Origin: Blattabacterium cuenoti
GTDB lineage: Bacteria; Bacteroidota; Bacteroidia; Flavobacteriales; Blattabacteriaceae
DNA: 64,000 nt
Reading direction: 5' to 3'
NCBI RefSeq assembly: GCF_014251695.1
Contig: NZ_CP059195.1
Span: 62,001-126,000, forward strand
Part shown: one piece after another, positions 31,849-39,414 of the stretch
How positions within the stretch are numbered: position 1 is the first letter of the stretch
How the letters are laid out: the number at the start of each line of letters is the position of its first letter
Notes under the pieces: generated by a model
The model's database searches: none
Seen by the model: the letters and a program-made list of their open reading frames with translations, nothing else
What the model was told of the DNA's origin: nothing
Made by a program: the position numbers and the translations under genes

Positions 31849-33063
31849 ATGCAAAAAGTAGTAGTTGGACTTTCAGGGGGAGTAGATTCAAGTGTTGCTG
31901 CATTCATTCTTCAAAAAAAGGGATATGAAGTTATTGGATTATTTATGCATAATTGGGAAGAGGATGATACTAATAATAATAAATGTACTTGGAAGGAAGA
32001 TAGTATTGATGCTATGTTAGTGTCCAAACAATTAAATATTCCTTTCCAAGTAGTAGAAATGAAAAATGAATACAAAAAACATGTTATAAACTATATGTTT
32101 CATGAATATAAATCAGGGAAAACCCCTAATCCAGATATTTTGTGTAATAAAGAAATCAAATTTAATATTTTTTTGAAAATAGCTCTTGATTTAGGAGCAG
32201 ATTTTATAGCGACTGGGCATTATGTAAATAAAGAAAAAATTATAAAAAATAGAAAAACAATTTATCGTCTTTTGATTGGAAAAGACCTTAATAAAGATCA
32301 ATCATATTTTTTATGTCAATTAACGCAATATCAATTGAAAAAATCTTTATTTCCATTAGGATTATTAACTAAAAATCAAGTAAGAAAAATAGCTAAAATC
32401 CATAAATTATGGAATGCTCATAAAAAAGAATCTCAAGGTTTATGTTTTGTAGGTAAAATTCATTTACCTAGTTTTCTTGAAAAAAAAATCCCTCCAAAAA
32501 AAGGAGAAATAGTCTGCATTAATTCTAATGCATCAGTATATAAAGAAAAAAAAATTTTTTTTTCTAAAGAAGAAGAATTATTCTTTTTATCTAAAAAAAA
32601 AAAATATAAAAAATCAGATGGAAAAATAATTGGATATCATCAAGGAGCATTTTATTTTACTAAAGGACAACGGAAGGGGATAGCGTTAGGAGGTTATAAG
32701 GACGCTCTTTTTGTTATAGATACTGATATAAAAAAAAATATTGTTTATACAGGGATGGGGAAAGAACATCCAGGATTATACAGAAAATCTTTGTTCATTC
32801 AAGAACCAAATATACATTGGATCCGTAAGGATCTTGCTCTTTTTGAAGGAGATAAAATGGATGTATTATGTAGAATCCGTTATAGACAACCGTTACAAAA
32901 ATCAAAATTATATAAAATAAAAAAAGGAATGTTCATAGAATTTGAATACATGCAATGCGCTATTACGGAAGGACAATTCGCTGTTTGGTATCTTGGAAAA
33001 GAATTAATAGGATCGGGAATTATTTCTATTATTTTACATTTTATATTATTTCAAAAAATTTAA
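31849..33063 (+). CDS. mnmA: tRNA-uridine 2-sulfurtransferase
   Basis: 404 residues from the ATG at 31849; a TTG six codons upstream is in frame but unlikely. The PP-loop is GLSGGVDSS at the N-terminus. The nucleophilic Cys is in PNPDILCNKEIKF, and the second catalytic Cys is in ESQGLCFVG. KDQSYFLCQL contacts tRNA. It installs the 2-thio group at U34 of tRNA-Lys/Glu/Gln. A twelve-A run (32593-32604) stays in frame, a useful contrast to nadE. Confidence 0.95.
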   Translation: MQKVVVGLSGGVDSSVAAFILQKKGYEVIGLFMHNWEEDDTNNNKCTWKEDSIDAMLVSKQLNIPFQVVEMKNEYKKHVINYMFHEYKSGKTPNPDILCNKEIKFNIFLKIALDLGADFIATGHYVNKEKIIKNRKTIYRLLIGKDLNKDQSYFLCQLTQYQLKKSLFPLGLLTKNQVRKIAKIHKLWNAHKKESQGLCFVGKIHLPSFLEKKIPPKKGEIVCINSNASVYKEKKIFFSKEEELFFLSKKKKYKKSDGKIIGYHQGAFYFTKGQRKGIALGGYKDALFVIDTDIKKNIVYTGMGKEHPGLYRKSLFIQEPNIHWIRKDLALFEGDKMDVLCRIRYRQPLQKSKLYKIKKGMFIEFEYMQCAITEGQFAVWYLGKELIGSGIISIILHFILFQKI

Positions 33064-33192
33064 TATATTTTATATTTATTTATTAACATAAATACATTTT
33101 TCAAGTAATTTATTATTATAAAAACTTTACAATATATTCATTAATAAATCAAAAAATAATAATATTTTAAAAATAAATACATAAAAATCGAT

Positions 33193-33222
33193 TTTGTATA
33201 ATCTATTTTTTTTATATTTTTG
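33193..33222 (+). promoter_or_regulatory. Bacteroidetes-type promoter of the ilv operon
   Basis: TTTG at 33193-33196, an 18-base spacer, and TATTTTTG at 33215-33222 match the TTTG/TAnnTTTG consensus. A start near 33229 would give a leader of about 112 bases before ilvD. It is the best two-box promoter I see in the window. Confidence 0.55.
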
Positions 33223-33246
33223 CATATTATATAATTTAAAATTTGT

Positions 33247-33323
33247 ATAGTTGATTAGTGTAAAACTATTCAAGTTTGGTATTATTTTTTTATCCCTACT
33301 TGATAGATCAGTAGGGCTTTTTT
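33247..33323 (+). promoter_or_regulatory. Terminator-type leader of ilvD, candidate attenuator
   Basis: A strong intrinsic terminator, CCCTACT (33294-33300) with AGTAGGG (33310-33316) plus CTTTTTT, lies between the promoter and ilvD. Upstream, ATAGTT (33247-33252) can pair with AACTAT (33264-33269). The overlapping strand CTATTCAAG (33266-33274) can instead pair with CTTGATAG (33299-33306), which includes part of the terminator. This makes two exclusive folds. The sensor is unknown. No conventional ATG leader peptide is visible. Confidence 0.5.
33294..33323 (+). terminator. Intrinsic terminator 18 bases before ilvD
   Basis: A 7-bp G/C-containing stem with an internal TGAT/ATCA extension is followed by six T. 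It is unusual in such AT-rich surroundings and could stop transcripts from mnmA or regulate ilvDBNCA. Confidence 0.75.
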
Positions 33324-33340
33324 ATTTATTAAAATATTTC

Positions 33341-35026
33341 ATGAAAAAAAAAATTAACGATTTTAGCAAAAAAATCACAAAAGAAGCTAATTTACCAGCC
33401 GCACATGCTATGTTGTATGCTACAGGAATGAAAGAATCAGATTTTGATAAAGCTCAAATAGGAATAGTGAGTAATTGGTACGAAGGGAATCCTTGCAATA
33501 TGCATTTAAATGAATTGGCTAAAAAAATAAAATCATCGGTCATAACTGAAAATTTAGTAGGGTTTCAATTTACCACTATTGGAGTAAGTGATGGAATTAC
33601 TATGGGAACATTAGGAATGAGATATTCACTTCCTTCCAGAGAATTAATAGCAGATAGTATAGAAACTGTAGTTGATTCTCATCATTATGATGGAGTGATA
33701 GCTATACCTGGATGTGATAAAAATATACCAGGAGTAATGATAGCTTTACTAAGATTAAATAGACCATCTATAATTGTATATGGAGGAAGTATTTCTTCAG
33801 GTTATTACAATGGAAAAAAATTAGATATTATTTCTTCTTTTGAAGCTTTAGGAAAAAAAAATACTAATCAAATTACTGAAGAAGAATACAAAAATACCGT
33901 AAAAAATTCTTGTCCAGGACCAGGTGCTTGTGGAGGTATGTATACTGCAAATACTATGGCTTCTGCTTTAGAAACTATGGGGATGATGCTCCCTTATTCT
34001 TCTTCTTCTCCTTCAATCAGTGAAAATAAAAAAATAGAATGTAAAACAGTTTCTACATATATTAAAAACCTATTAAAAATAGGGATTAAACCAAAAGACA
34101 TAGTGACAAAAACTTCTATAGAAAATGGAGTAAAATTATCTATGTGTTTAGGAGGCTCTACTAATTTAGTTTTACATTTTTTAGCTATTGCTAAATCAGC
34201 GAATATTGATTTTTCTTTAAAAAATTTTCAAAAAATTAGCAATCAAGTTCCTCTTATTGGAAATCTTAAACCTAGTGGGATTTTTTTAATGGAAGATATT
34301 CATACGAAGATAGGAGGAATGCCTGTTATTATAAAATATTTATTAAATGAAAGAATATTATCAGGAGATTGTTTAACCGTTACTGGAAAAACATTATCTG
34401 AAAATATGAAAAATATCCCCAATATAACTTTTAATCAAAAAATTATTCATTCTTTAGATAATCCCATAAAAAAAAACGGACATATCAGGATACTCTATGG
34501 AAATTTATCCCCCGAAGGATCAATAGCTAAAATTACTGGAAAAGAAGGAACAATTTTTAGAGGGATGGCTAATGTTTTTAATTCGGAAGAAGAAGCTAAT
34601 CAAGCTATTTTGAATAATAAAATTTTACCTGGATCTGTAATTGTCATTCGATATGTAGGTCCAATGGGAGGGCCAGGAATGCCAGAAATGTTAAAACCGA
34701 CATCTTATATCATGGGGGCCGGATTAGGAAAAAAAGTAGCTCTTATTACAGATGGAAGATTTTCAGGAGGATCACATGGGTTCGTTGTTGGACATATCAC
34801 TCCAGAAGCACAATCTGGAGGATTAATTGCTTTAGTAAAAAATAAAGATTTTATTAAAATAGACGCGGAAAATAACACGATTACTCTTGAAGTGGAAAAT
34901 GAAGAAATACAAAAAAGGAAAAAATCATGGATTCCTCCTCTATTAAAAATTAAAAAAGGATATCTATACAAATATATAAAAATGGTATCTCCAGCATCTG
35001 AAGGGTGTATTACAGATCAATTTTAG
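33341..35026 (+). CDS. ilvD: Dihydroxy-acid dehydratase
   Basis: 561 residues from the ATG at 33341. It dehydrates the dihydroxy acids to the 2-oxo precursors of valine and isoleucine. Fe-S and metal-binding segments are PGCDKNIPG and SCPGPGACGGMYTANTMASALE. DGRFSGGSHGFVVGHITPEA is the conserved C-terminal signature. The frame is open back to a TTG at 33251, through the terminator hairpin, but the added residues have no counterpart in the family. First gene of ilvDBNCA, 6 bases from ilvB. Confidence 0.95.
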   Translation: MKKKINDFSKKITKEANLPAAHAMLYATGMKESDFDKAQIGIVSNWYEGNPCNMHLNELAKKIKSSVITENLVGFQFTTIGVSDGITMGTLGMRYSLPSRELIADSIETVVDSHHYDGVIAIPGCDKNIPGVMIALLRLNRPSIIVYGGSISSGYYNGKKLDIISSFEALGKKNTNQITEEEYKNTVKNSCPGPGACGGMYTANTMASALETMGMMLPYSSSSPSISENKKIECKTVSTYIKNLLKIGIKPKDIVTKTSIENGVKLSMCLGGSTNLVLHFLAIAKSANIDFSLKNFQKISNQVPLIGNLKPSGIFLMEDIHTKIGGMPVIIKYLLNERILSGDCLTVTGKTLSENMKNIPNITFNQKIIHSLDNPIKKNGHIRILYGNLSPEGSIAKITGKEGTIFRGMANVFNSEEEANQAILNNKILPGSVIVIRYVGPMGGPGMPEMLKPTSYIMGAGLGKKVALITDGRFSGGSHGFVVGHITPEAQSGGLIALVKNKDFIKIDAENNTITLEVENEEIQKRKKSWIPPLLKIKKGYLYKYIKMVSPASEGCITDQF

Positions 35027-35032
35027 TTATGT

Positions 35033-36727
35033 ATGGAAAGAAAATTATTCTATGGTTCAGAAATAGTAATAAAAACACTCTTATATGAAGAGGTAGAATA
35101 CATATTTGGATACCCAGGTGGTGCTATCATGCCAATATATGATTCTTTACACGATTATTTAAATTCCATTTCGCACATTCTCATGCGTCACGAACAAGGA
35201 TCTATTCATGCAGCACAAGGATACGCTAGAGCTACTGGAAAAATTGGTGTATGTTTTACAACTTCAGGGCCAGGAGCTACTAATTTAATTACCGGATTAG
35301 CAGATGCTTTAACAGATAGTACTCCTCTTGTTTGTATTACTGGACAAGTATCTTCTCATTTATTAGGAACTGATGCTTTTCAAGAAACAAATATCATAGA
35401 TATTTCTATTCCTGTAACAAAATGGAATATTCAAGTTTTAAAAGCTAAAGATATTTGTGAATCCATTCAAAAAGGTTTTTTCATAGCTAAAAAAGGAAGA
35501 CCAGGACCTGTATTGATAGATATTACTAAAGATGCCCAGTTTGAAAAAACTGTATTTCACTATACACATCGTAAATATATAAAAAATTTTCATCCATATC
35601 CTTGTATAGAAAACAAGAGAATAATAGAAGCGGCAAATCTAATTAATTTATCTGAAAAACCTTTGATTCTTGTAGGTCAAGGAGTAATTTTATCCGAAGC
35701 AGAAAAAGAATTTAAAGAATTTGTTGAAAAAACTGGAATTCCAGTAGCTAGTACTCTATTAGGATTAGGAGCATTGAATAGTAATCATCATTTATATGTA
35801 GGAATGTTAGGAATGCATGGGAACTATGCTCCCAATATTTTAACTAATCAATGTGATATTCTTATTGCGATAGGAATGAGATTTGATGATCGTGTAACTG
35901 GAGATATAAATAAATATGCTAAACAAGCTAAAATCATTCATTTAGAGATAGACTATTCCGAGATTAATAAAAATATATTATGTCATATCCCAATTTTGGG
36001 AGATTGTAAAATATCTTTAAAAAAATTAATTTTTTATGTAAACAAATCTATCCATAAAAAATGGATAAAACAATTTATCCATCTTAAAGAAAAAGAAAAA
36101 ACTATAGTTATACAAAGAGATTTAAATCCAAAAAAAGAAGGAATGACCATGGGGGAAGTTATCAAATGGATAAATAAATATAAACAAAAAAATGCAATCC
36201 TTGTAACTGACGTAGGGCAACATCAAATGATAGCTTCTAGATATTTCAATTTTACTTTCAAAAAAAGTCAAATAACTTCTGGAGGGTTGGGAACTATGGG
36301 GTTTGCTTTACCAGCTTCTATAGGAGCTAAATTAGGAGCGAAAAATAGACAAGTTCTTTGTATAGTAGGAGATGGAGGAATTCAAATGACAATACAAGAA
36401 ATGGGAACTATATTAGAAAATAATATTCCTGTTAAAATTATATTGTTAAATAATAATTTTTTGGGAATGGTACGTCAATGGCAACAACTTTTTTTTGATA
36501 AACGTTATTCATGCACAAAATTAGTTAATCCAGATTTTATAAAATTAGCTAATGCTTATAACATAAAAGCAAAAAAAGTGAGTAAAAGAAAAGAATTAGA
36601 AGAATCAGTCAAAAAAGCATTAAATCATGAAAAAGCTTTTTTATTAGAAGTAATAATAGAAAAAGAAGATAATGTTTTTCCTATGATTCCTGCAGGAGCA
36701 GCTGTAGATGAAATTCGTTTAACATAA
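35033..36727 (+). CDS. ilvB: Acetolactate synthase large subunit
   Basis: The 564-residue ThDP enzyme makes acetolactate or acetohydroxybutyrate. YIFGYPGGAIMPIYD carries the early active-site residues; the catalytic Glu is in HILMRHEQGSIHAAQGYAR. The ThDP/Mg motif is VGDGGIQMTIQEMGTI followed by LNNNFLGMVRQWQ. All three ThDP-enzyme domains are present. The regulatory subunit gene ilvN follows 19 bases later. Confidence 0.96.
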   Translation: MERKLFYGSEIVIKTLLYEEVEYIFGYPGGAIMPIYDSLHDYLNSISHILMRHEQGSIHAAQGYARATGKIGVCFTTSGPGATNLITGLADALTDSTPLVCITGQVSSHLLGTDAFQETNIIDISIPVTKWNIQVLKAKDICESIQKGFFIAKKGRPGPVLIDITKDAQFEKTVFHYTHRKYIKNFHPYPCIENKRIIEAANLINLSEKPLILVGQGVILSEAEKEFKEFVEKTGIPVASTLLGLGALNSNHHLYVGMLGMHGNYAPNILTNQCDILIAIGMRFDDRVTGDINKYAKQAKIIHLEIDYSEINKNILCHIPILGDCKISLKKLIFYVNKSIHKKWIKQFIHLKEKEKTIVIQRDLNPKKEGMTMGEVIKWINKYKQKNAILVTDVGQHQMIASRYFNFTFKKSQITSGGLGTMGFALPASIGAKLGAKNRQVLCIVGDGGIQMTIQEMGTILENNIPVKIILLNNNFLGMVRQWQQLFFDKRYSCTKLVNPDFIKLANAYNIKAKKVSKRKELEESVKKALNHEKAFLLEVIIEKEDNVFPMIPAGAAVDEIRLT

Positions 36728-36746
36728 ATTATAAATATATAACTCT

Positions 36747-37046
36747 ATGAAGCATCAATTCAGAATAATAATTTTAGGAGAAAAAGAAACAAGATTATTA
36801 AGTAGAATTCTTATTTTATTCAATCGAAGGAATATGAAACCCAATCATATTAATGTATCTAGTAATAATAAAAATGAAACAATCAATCATGTTCAATCTG
36901 TTATAGACTTAGAATGTAAAGAAGAACAATTATTTAAAATAAAAAAATTAATTGAAAAATTAATTGGAATTATTCATGTTTACTATTATAAATTAGAAGA
37001 AAAAAAATCATGGAAAAAAATGGAGATACCACTCGCTACATATTAA
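36747..37046 (+). CDS. ilvN: Acetolactate synthase small (regulatory) subunit, short form
   Basis: The 99-residue protein contains one ACT domain (about 5-75). It starts HQFRIIILGEKETRLLSRILILFNRRNM, matching the ligand-binding start of other IlvN/IlvH proteins, although Gly-rich turns are altered. Free-living flavobacteria usually have about 170 residues with a second C-terminal domain. That domain is missing here, so the subunit resembles the short E. coli IlvN in length. Feedback control by valine may be reduced; this is inference. Confidence 0.88.
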   Translation: MKHQFRIIILGEKETRLLSRILILFNRRNMKPNHINVSSNNKNETINHVQSVIDLECKEEQLFKIKKLIEKLIGIIHVYYYKLEEKKSWKKMEIPLATY

Positions 37047-37071: not shown

Positions 37072-38121
37072 ATGAAAATTAAATTTGGATCTATAGAAGA
37101 AACTATCATTACAAGAGATGAATTCCCTATATCTAAAGCTAGAGAAATTTTGAAAAAAGAAACTATTTCTATCTTAGGTTATGGAGTACAAGGGCCTGGA
37201 CAATCTTTGAATTTACGCGATAATGAATTTAAAGTGATAGTAGGACAAAGAAAACATTCTTTTTCTTGGGATAAAGCCTTAGAAGATGGATGGATAGAAG
37301 GAAAAAATCTTTTTTCTTTAGAAGAAGCTTCTGAAAGAGGAACTATACTCATGTATTTATTATCAGATGCAGGTCAAATCTCTTTTTGGCCTACTCTTAG
37401 TAAATATTTAACTGAAGGAAAATCTTTATATTTTTCACATGGATTTGGATTGACTTTTCGTAGTCAAACAAAAATATCTCCCTCTAAAAATATAGATATT
37501 TTTTTAGTTGCCCCCAAAGGTTCGGGGACTAGTTTAAGAAGACATTTTAAACAAGGAAAAGGAATTAATTCTAGTTATGCTATTTATCAGGATTATAGTG
37601 GAAATAGTTTAGACAAAACTCTGTCCATTGGAATCGGAATAGGATCTGGATATTTATTTAAAACAAATTTTAAAAATGAAGTCTATTCTGATTTAGTAGG
37701 AGAAAGAGGAACTTTGATGGGAGCTATACAAGGAATTTTTGCGGCACAATATCAAATATTAAGAGAAAAAGGGCATTCTCCTTCAGAATCTTTTAACGAA
37801 ACGGTAGAAGAATTAACTCAAAGTTTGATGCCACTAATATCTGAAAAAGGAATGGATTGGATGTATTCTAATTGTTCTACTACTGCACAAAGAGGGGCTT
37901 TAGATTGGTGGGAAAAATTTAGAGATGCTACTATTCCAATCTTTCAAGAATTATATCATGAAGTATTTTCTGGTAACGAAGCCAAAAGAATTATTAAAGC
38001 TAATAGTGATATAAATTATAGAGAAAAATTACAAAAAGAATTGAAAAATATAAAAAAAAGTGAATTATGGAAAGTAGGCTCTATCATTCGTAATCTTAGG
38101 CCGGAAAAAAAAGATTCATAA
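37072..38121 (+). CDS. ilvC: Ketol-acid reductoisomerase
   Basis: 349 residues. The nucleotide-binding motif is ILGYGVQGPGQSLNLRD (about 54-70), followed by VGQRKHSFSWDKA, whose Arg/Ser favour NADPH. Catalytic acids are in VYSDLVGERGTLMGA (Asp and Glu) and later FNETVEELTQSLMPLI. It rearranges and reduces acetolactate to dihydroxyisovalerate with Mg2+. The gene sits between ilvN and ilvA with 25-27 base gaps. Confidence 0.95.
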   Translation: MKIKFGSIEETIITRDEFPISKAREILKKETISILGYGVQGPGQSLNLRDNEFKVIVGQRKHSFSWDKALEDGWIEGKNLFSLEEASERGTILMYLLSDAGQISFWPTLSKYLTEGKSLYFSHGFGLTFRSQTKISPSKNIDIFLVAPKGSGTSLRRHFKQGKGINSSYAIYQDYSGNSLDKTLSIGIGIGSGYLFKTNFKNEVYSDLVGERGTLMGAIQGIFAAQYQILREKGHSPSESFNETVEELTQSLMPLISEKGMDWMYSNCSTTAQRGALDWWEKFRDATIPIFQELYHEVFSGNEAKRIIKANSDINYREKLQKELKNIKKSELWKVGSIIRNLRPEKKDS

Positions 38122-38148: not shown

Positions 38149-39414
38149 TTGAAAAATAAATTTAAAGGATATTTTCCTTCTTACAAAGAAATAATTCAAG
38201 CTAATAATATTTTAAAAGATATTATTTATGAAACTCCATTACAAAAAAATTTTTTTTTATCAGAAAAATATAAAGCTAATGTTTTTCTTAAAAGAGAAGA
38301 CTTACAAATTGTACGATCATACAAAATTAGAGGAGCTTACAATAAAATTAAAAGTTTATCTCATACAGAATTGAAAAAAGGAATTGTTTGTGCAAGTGCA
38401 GGAAATCATGCGCAAGGGGTTGCTTATTCTTGTAGTACATTAAAAATTCCAGGAAAAATATATATGCCGAGTACGACTCCTAAACAAAAGGTAGAAAGAG
38501 TTAAAATGTTTGGAAAAGAGTATGTTGAAATTATTCTGAACGGAGATACCTTTGATGCAGTTAGTTGTGAAGCAATAAAAGATTGTAAAAAAAATAAAAA
38601 AATTTTTATTCACCCTTTTGATGATATTAAAATTATTGAAGGACAAGCTACTGTTGGGTTAGAAATTTTACAGCAATCTATTTCAGATATTGATTATATT
38701 TTTATTCCTATTGGTGGAGGAGGATTAGCTTCTGGTGTAGCAAGTTATTTTCAAGAATTTAGTCCTAAAACTAAAATTATAGGAGTAGAACCTAAAGGAG
38801 CTCCATCTATGAGTTTTTCTTTAAAAAAAGGAGAAATTGTTGAATTAAAAAGAATTGACAGATTCATTGATGGAGCTTCAGTAAAAAAAGTAGGAGAATT
38901 AAATTTTAATATATGTAATCAAACATTATTTGATATTAGAACTGTTCCTGAGGGTAAAGTTTGTACAACGATTTTGGATTTATATAATTTAGAAGCTATT
39001 ATTGCAGAACCTGCTGGAGCTCTTTCAATAGCCGCTTTAGATTTTTATTCTGATGAAATAAAAGGAAAGACTATTGTCTGTATTTTAAGTGGAGGAAATA
39101 ATGATATTACTAGAACGGAAGAAATAAGAGAGAAATCTCTATTATATGAAGGGAAAAAACATTATTTTATTGTAAAATTTCCTCAAAGAGCTGGTGCTTT
39201 AAAAGAATTTGTTAACAATATTTTGGGTCCAAAAGATGATATCGCCTATTTTGAATATTCTAAAAAAACTTCTAAAGAAGAAGGCCCAGCAGTAATAGGA
39301 ATAGAATTAGCAGATAAAAATGAATTTTCTGTTTTATTAAAAAGAATGAAAAAATATAAGGTTCATTTTCAATATTTAAATAAAAATCCAGATTTATTTC
39401 GTATTCTGATATAA
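38149..39414 (+). CDS. ilvA: Threonine dehydratase
   Basis: 421 residues. The PLP Lys is in VRSYKIRGAYNKI (near 60), the cofactor Gly-rich loop is IPIGGGGLASGVASYF, and a C-terminal ACT-like domain starts around 330 (FIVKFPQRAGALKEFVN). It makes 2-oxobutyrate for isoleucine. The start is TTG at 38149, because no in-frame ATG precedes the conserved PLP segment. Only one ACT-like repeat is present, fewer than the two of E. coli IlvA. It ends just before the convergent tRNA-Leu. Confidence 0.94.
   Translation: MKNKFKGYFPSYKEIIQANNILKDIIYETPLQKNFFLSEKYKANVFLKREDLQIVRSYKIRGAYNKIKSLSHTELKKGIVCASAGNHAQGVAYSCSTLKIPGKIYMPSTTPKQKVERVKMFGKEYVEIILNGDTFDAVSCEAIKDCKKNKKIFIHPFDDIKIIEGQATVGLEILQQSISDIDYIFIPIGGGGLASGVASYFQEFSPKTKIIGVEPKGAPSMSFSLKKGEIVELKRIDRFIDGASVKKVGELNFNICNQTLFDIRTVPEGKVCTTILDLYNLEAIIAEPAGALSIAALDFYSDEIKGKTIVCILSGGNNDITRTEEIREKSLLYEGKKHYFIVKFPQRAGALKEFVNNILGPKDDIAYFEYSKKTSKEEGPAVIGIELADKNEFSVLLKRMKKYKVHFQYLNKNPDLFRILI

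Follow-up and report, generated by a model that had tools for sequence, protein, structure and literature searches.

Does an obligate symbiont still control the output of a nutritional pathway at the RNA level, or is that output fixed? The question is raised by the ilvD locus of the cockroach symbiont Blattabacterium cuenoti, where a predicted intrinsic terminator stands between a promoter and the first gene of the branched-chain amino acid operon, and it is raised in a kind of bacterium that is held to lose attenuation along with leader peptides (passages of PMC3091783 and PMC3229713 make this case for Buchnera). An initial annotation had described the leader as a four-segment attenuator in which a second fold would block the terminator. 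We examined the window, meaning the whole stretch of 64,000 nucleotides that was analysed, together with a set of 49 Blattabacterium genomes, 45 of which contain a match to ilvD. The genome containing the window is a single contig of 630,624 bases. The N-terminus of its IlvD is 83-89% identical to those of Blattabacterium cuenoti strains, the closest relatives with a name in the GTDB collection. The features discussed below are collected in Table 1.

Table 1. Genes and leader elements around ilvD, in window coordinates
Feature	Coordinates	Strand	Details	Basis
mnmA (putative)	31849-33063	as ilvD	stops 277 nt 5' of ilvD	translation reading
ilvD promoter	33193-33222	+	TTTG 33193-33196; -7 box TATTTTTG 33215-33222	
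Hairpin 1 (5' hairpin)	33239-33277	+	AAATTTGTATAGTT (33239-33252) with AACTATTCAAGTTT (33264-33277)	
Alternative pairing	33266-33306	+	CTATTCAAGTTTGG (33266-33279) with CCCTACTTGATAG (33294-33306)	
ilvD-leader intrinsic terminator	33294-33323	+	stem 33294-33316, arms CCCTAC (33294-33299) and GTAGGG (33311-33316); T6 run 33318-33323	
ilvD (dihydroxy-acid dehydratase)	33341-35026	+	first gene of operon ilvD-ilvB-ilvN-ilvC-ilvA	ORF list and reading of translations
ilvB (putative)	35033-36727		same operon	named from translation reading
ilvN (putative)	36747-37046		same operon	named from translation reading
ilvC (putative)	37072-38121		same operon	named from translation reading
ilvA (putative)	38149-39414		same operon	named from translation reading

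The ilvD leader and its terminator

The leader had been given a two-box promoter, and both boxes are present. The flavobacterial -7 box is conserved, with TAnnTTTG found 60-200 nt upstream of ilvD in 40 of the 45 congeners, but the -33 TTTG is not: we scored a TTTG 16-26 nt upstream of the -7 box in just 2 of these 40, and one of the two (in G176) looks spurious and seems to be the -7 box itself. In Flavobacterium psychrophilum the TAnnTTTG motif spans -12 to -5, according to passages of PMC9723704, and by analogy transcription of ilvD would start near 33227. A differing 5' hairpin overlaps the ilvD start-site region in a clade of three genomes (G169, G175 and G119; loci L154, L155 and L156); it reads TGCATATTATATAATTTATGATATGCA in G169 and G175.

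The terminator was found as the initial annotation had placed it. It has a predicted energy of -9.5 kcal/mol, which was matched by 3 of 300 dinucleotide shuffles of the 100 nt upstream of ilvD. A pattern with its exact arms has a single match in the window's genome and matches 19 of the 49 genomes, with one copy in each. In 35 of 45 congeners, where the loops vary, the arms can be recognised as CCCTAC/GTAGGG or as listed variants of them, and a hairpin with a T-run at or below -8 kcal/mol lies within 72 nt of the ilvD start codon in 29 of 45. An automatic rule rated the terminator weak in G003, G005, G131, G160, G165 and G171. Most relatives conserve the terminator; a lack of such conservation had been named as grounds for refuting the original reading. 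In an alignment used for covariation, covering 21 of the 35 arm-bearing leaders, 95.9% of the cells of the terminator pairing are paired and the arms are too constant for covariation. Only 17 nt separate the T-run from the ilvD start, so transcripts starting at 33227 must cross the terminator. We ruled out an operator for a DNA-binding protein because the spacing of the arms ranges from about 4 to more than 20 nt. No riboswitch, T-box or other Rfam family matched the ilvD leader when positions 32900-33700 were searched; the sole match in this interval was to a snoRNA model on the opposite strand within ilvD (E = 6.5, far below the gathering score).

The arms are absent in ten of the 45 genomes (G002, G009, G010, G017, G020, G021, G162, G163, G164 and G166). 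These are the ten smallest of the 45, at 561-608 kb, and all arm-keeping genomes have at least 613 kb. Decayed copies of the terminator are still readable in G002 and G021. On a quick tree of IlvD only, nine of the ten (G010 is unplaced) are accounted for by one change on a branch with a support of 67, and eight form a clade with a support of 95. One or two events suffice to explain the loss, with long branches making this uncertain. The tree holds 43 of the 45 sequences and two outgroups, with 16 of its 42 inner branches open; G010 and G013 were omitted because their reading frames are broken. The ilvD frame is split in G010 and broken after about 107 codons in G013 (L020, L341, L343), and ilvD is short (412 aa) in G175.

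Upstream of the terminator, the pairing of ATAGTT (33247-33252) with AACTAT (33264-33269) that had been pointed out forms part of a longer hairpin, which we call hairpin 1. It comprises 14 positions, including one T-T mismatch and one T-G pair. In a shuffle-type test on the window's own sequence its strength was modest (p = 0.025); of the 33 leaders put to this test, 18 had a z below -1.64. The proposed check for covariation gave a divided answer. In the 21 aligned leaders 82.5% of cells are paired as against 80.4% in shuffled alignments (22 of 500 were as high) and only 14 of 500 shuffles matched the covariation score, but two-sided pair changes are not commoner than in shuffled alignments (395 of 500). 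Evolutionary support for hairpin 1 is weak.

Leader-peptide searches and terminators at ilv, his and trp

Attenuators of amino acid operons commonly compared with this layout carry a leader peptide as sensor, and we searched for one in the 220 nt upstream of ilvD. No ORF started by ATG with 7 of 10 codons for Ile, Leu or Val was found ahead of the terminator in any of the 45 Blattabacterium ilv leaders. When any start codon was allowed, one genome (G015) had an Ile/Leu/Val-rich leader ORF; in G004 an ORF that starts with TTG has 8 of 10 codons of this kind and overlaps the terminator. The window contains no ATG ORF between the ilvD promoter and the terminator. A TTG frame at 33251 was rejected as a leader peptide, as it is open into ilvD and is shifted or stopped in relatives such as G018.

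The his and trp operons likewise have a terminator between promoter and first gene, in relatives as well as in the window's genome. Before hisG it reaches -8 kcal/mol or lower in 47 of 49 genomes, and 44 of the 49 carry exact copies of its arms, AAGCTTAC and GTAAGCTT. It is retained even in the smallest genome (G167, 511 kb); the hairpin was not found in the his leader of G174, and the leader is very short in some genomes, for example G171. Among genomes with exact arms the loop is TCTT in 7 (L211 and L232 are examples) and its reverse complement AAGA in 10 (such as L227), as if it flipped through hairpin-mediated inversion. Before trpE the terminator reaches -8 kcal/mol or lower in 26 of 44 genomes and is below that strength in the other 18; the trp counts cover 44 genomes and omit a match in G167 that consists of two broken fragments. 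We dropped the idea that the trp leader pairs with the region around the trpE start, since z was below -1.64 in just 5 of 44. Four genomes (G007, G105, G167 and G174) retain hisG and have neither an ilvD match nor an intact trpE match, and G170 has no trpE match. No such terminator was found before leuA in the six congeners examined or in the free-living G027; in G000 an AT-rich hairpin at -158 was not counted as a terminator. Within the window, ilvD is alone among 57 ORF-called genes in having a leader terminator at or below -8 kcal/mol. One other match, before 38464, was rejected because it lies inside the ilvA reading frame, where the rule had picked a late ATG.

In these leaders, too, a sensor is not recognisable. 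An ORF with Trp-Trp occurs in 0 of 44 Blattabacterium trp leaders and an ORF with a single Trp in 11 of 44. In 20 of 49 his leaders, such as L232, there is an ATG-CAY-stop ORF, which lies just downstream of the promoter in those that we read. We rejected this minimal ORF as the his sensor because, at 20 of 49, it is not general; it is either a vestigial one-histidine leader or chance. The TTG ORF of G004, the ATG-CAY-stop ORFs and the single-Trp ORFs are possible vestiges of sensors.

The persistence of the terminators points to purifying selection on the his, trp and ilv leaders. Fourfold-degenerate sites of hisG, trpE and ilvD contain 11-14% GC, and at none of 276 such sites (64 in hisG and 71 in trpE, each in 30 genomes, and 141 in ilvD in 17 genomes) is the same G or C found in 90% or more of the genomes. 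Since the GC-rich arms persist while the loops vary in length and sequence, selection would act on the stem rather than on a protein site of fixed spacing.

Free-living relatives suggest where these terminators came from. In all 20 free-living Flavobacteriales examined, a Trp-Trp leader ORF and a terminator precede trpE. The terminator starts with (A)GGCTT(G/A)TC in 19 of the 20, G039 being different, and AGGCTTGTCTTTATGACGGCCT or close variants are found in 31 of 44 Blattabacterium trp leaders. Two free-living loci tested (L344 and L356) scored above the gathering score of Rfam RF01692 (Bacteroid-trp), a motif listed in PMC2864571; the trp leader of the window's genome (L253) had no match to this model at E up to 1. 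By homology of the shared 5' arm of the terminator, the trp leader has lost its sensor and kept its terminator. The trpE locus of free-living G098 also contains a known Flavo-1 RNA (RF01705) downstream, on the opposite strand (L344:2876-2948).

For ilv, 8 of the 35 free-living genomes have an Ile/Leu/Val-rich leader ORF with a terminator in the 350 nt upstream of ilvD, against none of 35 in the reverse-strand control; G027 (MRVNNVILSIIILLCQL) and G140 (MMQISIIITSVVVVNVIHTSASGML) are two of them. The leader-peptide rule failed in the remaining 27. A scan by eye of 59 of 80 loci, 3 of them from Blattabacterium, led us to recognise one ilv leader peptide among the 56 non-Blattabacterium loci (L073, on a Saprospiraceae contig). 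An ancestral ilv attenuator is therefore less sure than an ancestral trp attenuator. In G027, the one free-living genome examined for his, a leader with HHHPH (MNINRLHHHPHYKNFTEVSE) and a terminator precede hisG. The letters of the ilv and his terminators are not demonstrably common to free-living relatives, and we infer the ancestry of both. Leader-peptide attenuation has been proposed for amino acid operons in Flavobacterium psychrophilum (passages of PMC9723704).

Attenuation, the overall reading of the initial annotation, stands in part. Most congeners keep a premature terminator downstream of the ilvD promoter and ahead of the gene, and attenuators of this type are in use among free-living relatives. 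Retention of the four-segment switch is not supported, and no leader peptide with regulatory codons was found (0 of 45 with an ATG start).

Candidate functions of the ilvD leader

We favour, at about an even chance, the reading that the ilvD leader is a stripped attenuator, in which the sensor has gone and the terminator is kept as a constitutive partial terminator acting as a fixed brake. It builds on features seen in the sequences themselves, namely the promoter box, the terminator, their conservation, the homology of the trp terminator and the lack of a recognisable leader peptide. Termination would actually occur at this site, would be partial and would be unconditional. The ancestor shared with free-living Flavobacteriales would have controlled amino acid operons by leader-peptide attenuation, surely in the case of trp and probably in those of his and ilv. 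In Blattabacterium the leader peptide can no longer be recognised in any of the three leaders, and promoter and premature terminator have stayed under purifying selection. RNA polymerase would start near 33227, hairpin 1 would form first and the terminator after it, and part of the transcripts would stop near 33323. Read-through by the remaining fraction would hold the ilv operon at a roughly steady level, with no amino-acid switch; the alternative fold may increase read-through in the window's subclade. Constitutive partial termination is favoured because no sensor is in sight.

It is less likely, and on balance we doubt, that the leader is a working conditional attenuator in which hairpin 1, the alternative fold and the terminator compete and a signal other than a peptide, such as polymerase speed, nucleotide level or a protein, decides between them. 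Much depends on the alternative pairing. The pairing of CTATTCAAG (33266-33274) with CTTGATAG (33299-33306) reported earlier is present and is longer than had been stated, with 11 pairs and about -10 kcal/mol, and its strength in the window's own sequence is modest (p = 0.035). Duplex z was below -1.64 in 12 of 33 leaders tested, namely 10 of the 12 members of the window's subclade and G004 and G005, which have other pairings; the 33 were drawn from 45 leaders, the other 12 having no terminator or promoter box by pattern. By this measure the subclade's fold matches free-living ilv and trp leaders in strength, and G003 and G165 combine weak terminators with the strongest alternative duplexes. 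Applied to free-living attenuators with clear leader peptides, the same test brought z below -1.64 in none of 19 trp leaders (20 loci less G039) and in 2 of the 8 ilv leaders that pass the leader-peptide rule. A test that misses most leaders in which the peptide is clear is weak, and we dropped it as a general criterion; having little power, it decides neither for nor against a switch. Among Blattabacterium leaders z fell under -1.64 for trp in 2 of 29 and for his in 1 of 48.

Against a conditional switch stands the distribution of this pairing, which is present in 12 genomes only, all in the window's own subclade. Over 43 rows of the tree it requires two changes, which could be a gain followed by a loss in a nested group of G005, G147 and G160. 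Sister lineages have TAACCGG or a similar sequence as terminator loop, without the 3' segment of the pairing. Among the 21 aligned leaders, 9 are missing the terminator-loop segment and mostly retain the CTATTC arm, and since that arm stays where its 3' partner is missing, its conservation is better explained by hairpin 1. No alternative pair is altered on both sides in any cell, and 500 of 500 shuffles reach the covariation score. Judged by these comparisons, the alternative fold is possible but not supported by evolution, and retention of the four-segment switch that had been proposed is not supported: its second fold is kept in one subclade only and shows no compensatory change. In the window, moreover, the default fold of hairpin 1 and terminator (-20.7 kcal/mol) is ahead of the terminator-free fold (-12.5 kcal/mol) by about 8 kcal/mol, and the leader has neither a leader peptide nor an Rfam match that would indicate a sensor.

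The hairpins might instead act on the mRNA, in protection from nucleases at the 5' end or in translation initiation, with an incidental T-run, which we regard as improbable. The leader hairpins start about 35-75 nt upstream of start codons, and T-runs are common in sequence this rich in AT. In the window's genome, however, the T-run begins within one base after the stem in all three of the ilv, his and trp leaders, and the hairpin of the trp leader has a homologue in the terminator of a known attenuator.

Slightly harder to sustain is the explanation that the terminator stops read-through from mnmA and has the promoter in front of it by chance. mnmA is indeed co-directional and ends 277 nt upstream of ilvD, and G013 keeps the hairpin despite its broken ilvD frame and although its -7 box was not found by the patterns used. 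Yet 40 of 45 congeners keep the -7 box on the 5' side of the terminator, and the same layout precedes hisG and trpE, whose nearest upstream ORFs are divergent in the window's genome, so that their terminators cannot end an upstream gene there. Nor do other genes of the window end in this way: a hairpin with a T-run at or below -8 kcal/mol was found at 1 of 57 gene ends, and there inside the adjoining reading frame. The window's genome encodes Rho, as do all three other congeners searched, which may account for how genes end.

That the terminators are neutral leftovers not yet decayed is very improbable, for although decayed copies exist in G002 and G021 and the ilv arms are lost in 10 of 45 genomes, GC-rich arms persist where no fourfold-degenerate site holds a G or C in 90% of genomes, and the his terminator is present in the smallest genome.

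Relation to known attenuators

If the fixed-brake reading of ilvD is extended to the other two operons, the ilv, his and trp attenuators would all have become sensorless with their terminators selected, each former switch turning into an operon-specific fixed brake that a new peptide-free fold can tune in one subclade. We offer this extension tentatively, as a possibility clearly short of an even chance. Three terminators appear to have outlasted their sensors in a genome where gene ends of the window are nearly devoid of intrinsic terminators. Three stripped attenuators side by side are of more interest than a single switch would be. They also turn RNA-level control of a nutritional pathway in an obligate symbiont, fixed or not, into a testable matter, and lineages that lack the ilv terminator and have the his terminator provide a natural experiment. 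Among the first matches listed from an open-licence library we came across no account of attenuators or leader terminators in this genus, and the text of a paper on selection in Blattabacterium genomes (PMC6128925) does not contain the words intergenic, promoter or ilvD.

The Blattabacterium leaders resemble leader-peptide attenuators of the trp, his and ilv type in their predicted arrangement of promoter, hairpin and premature intrinsic terminator before the same operons. They differ in that the ilv and trp leaders have no recognised peptide of regulatory codons, that a candidate antiterminator is seen in one subclade only, and that the his leader of some genomes, such as G171, is very short. 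The trp terminator has the same AGGCTTGTC..GCCT stem as the free-living leaders that match the Bacteroid-trp family, whereas the trp leader of the window's genome does not match the family model and the Trp-Trp ORF is missing throughout. Among symbionts, an eroded thr attenuator has been described in Serratia symbiotica (passages of PMC4122931), and Buchnera reportedly has neither leader sequences nor attenuation (in passages of PMC3091783), the loss of its leader peptides being stated in parts of PMC3229713 as well. As far as these passages go, Blattabacterium is like both in having lost leader peptides after the move into a host; whereas their attenuators are described there as eroded, detached or absent, Blattabacterium keeps the terminators of three operons across most of the genus.
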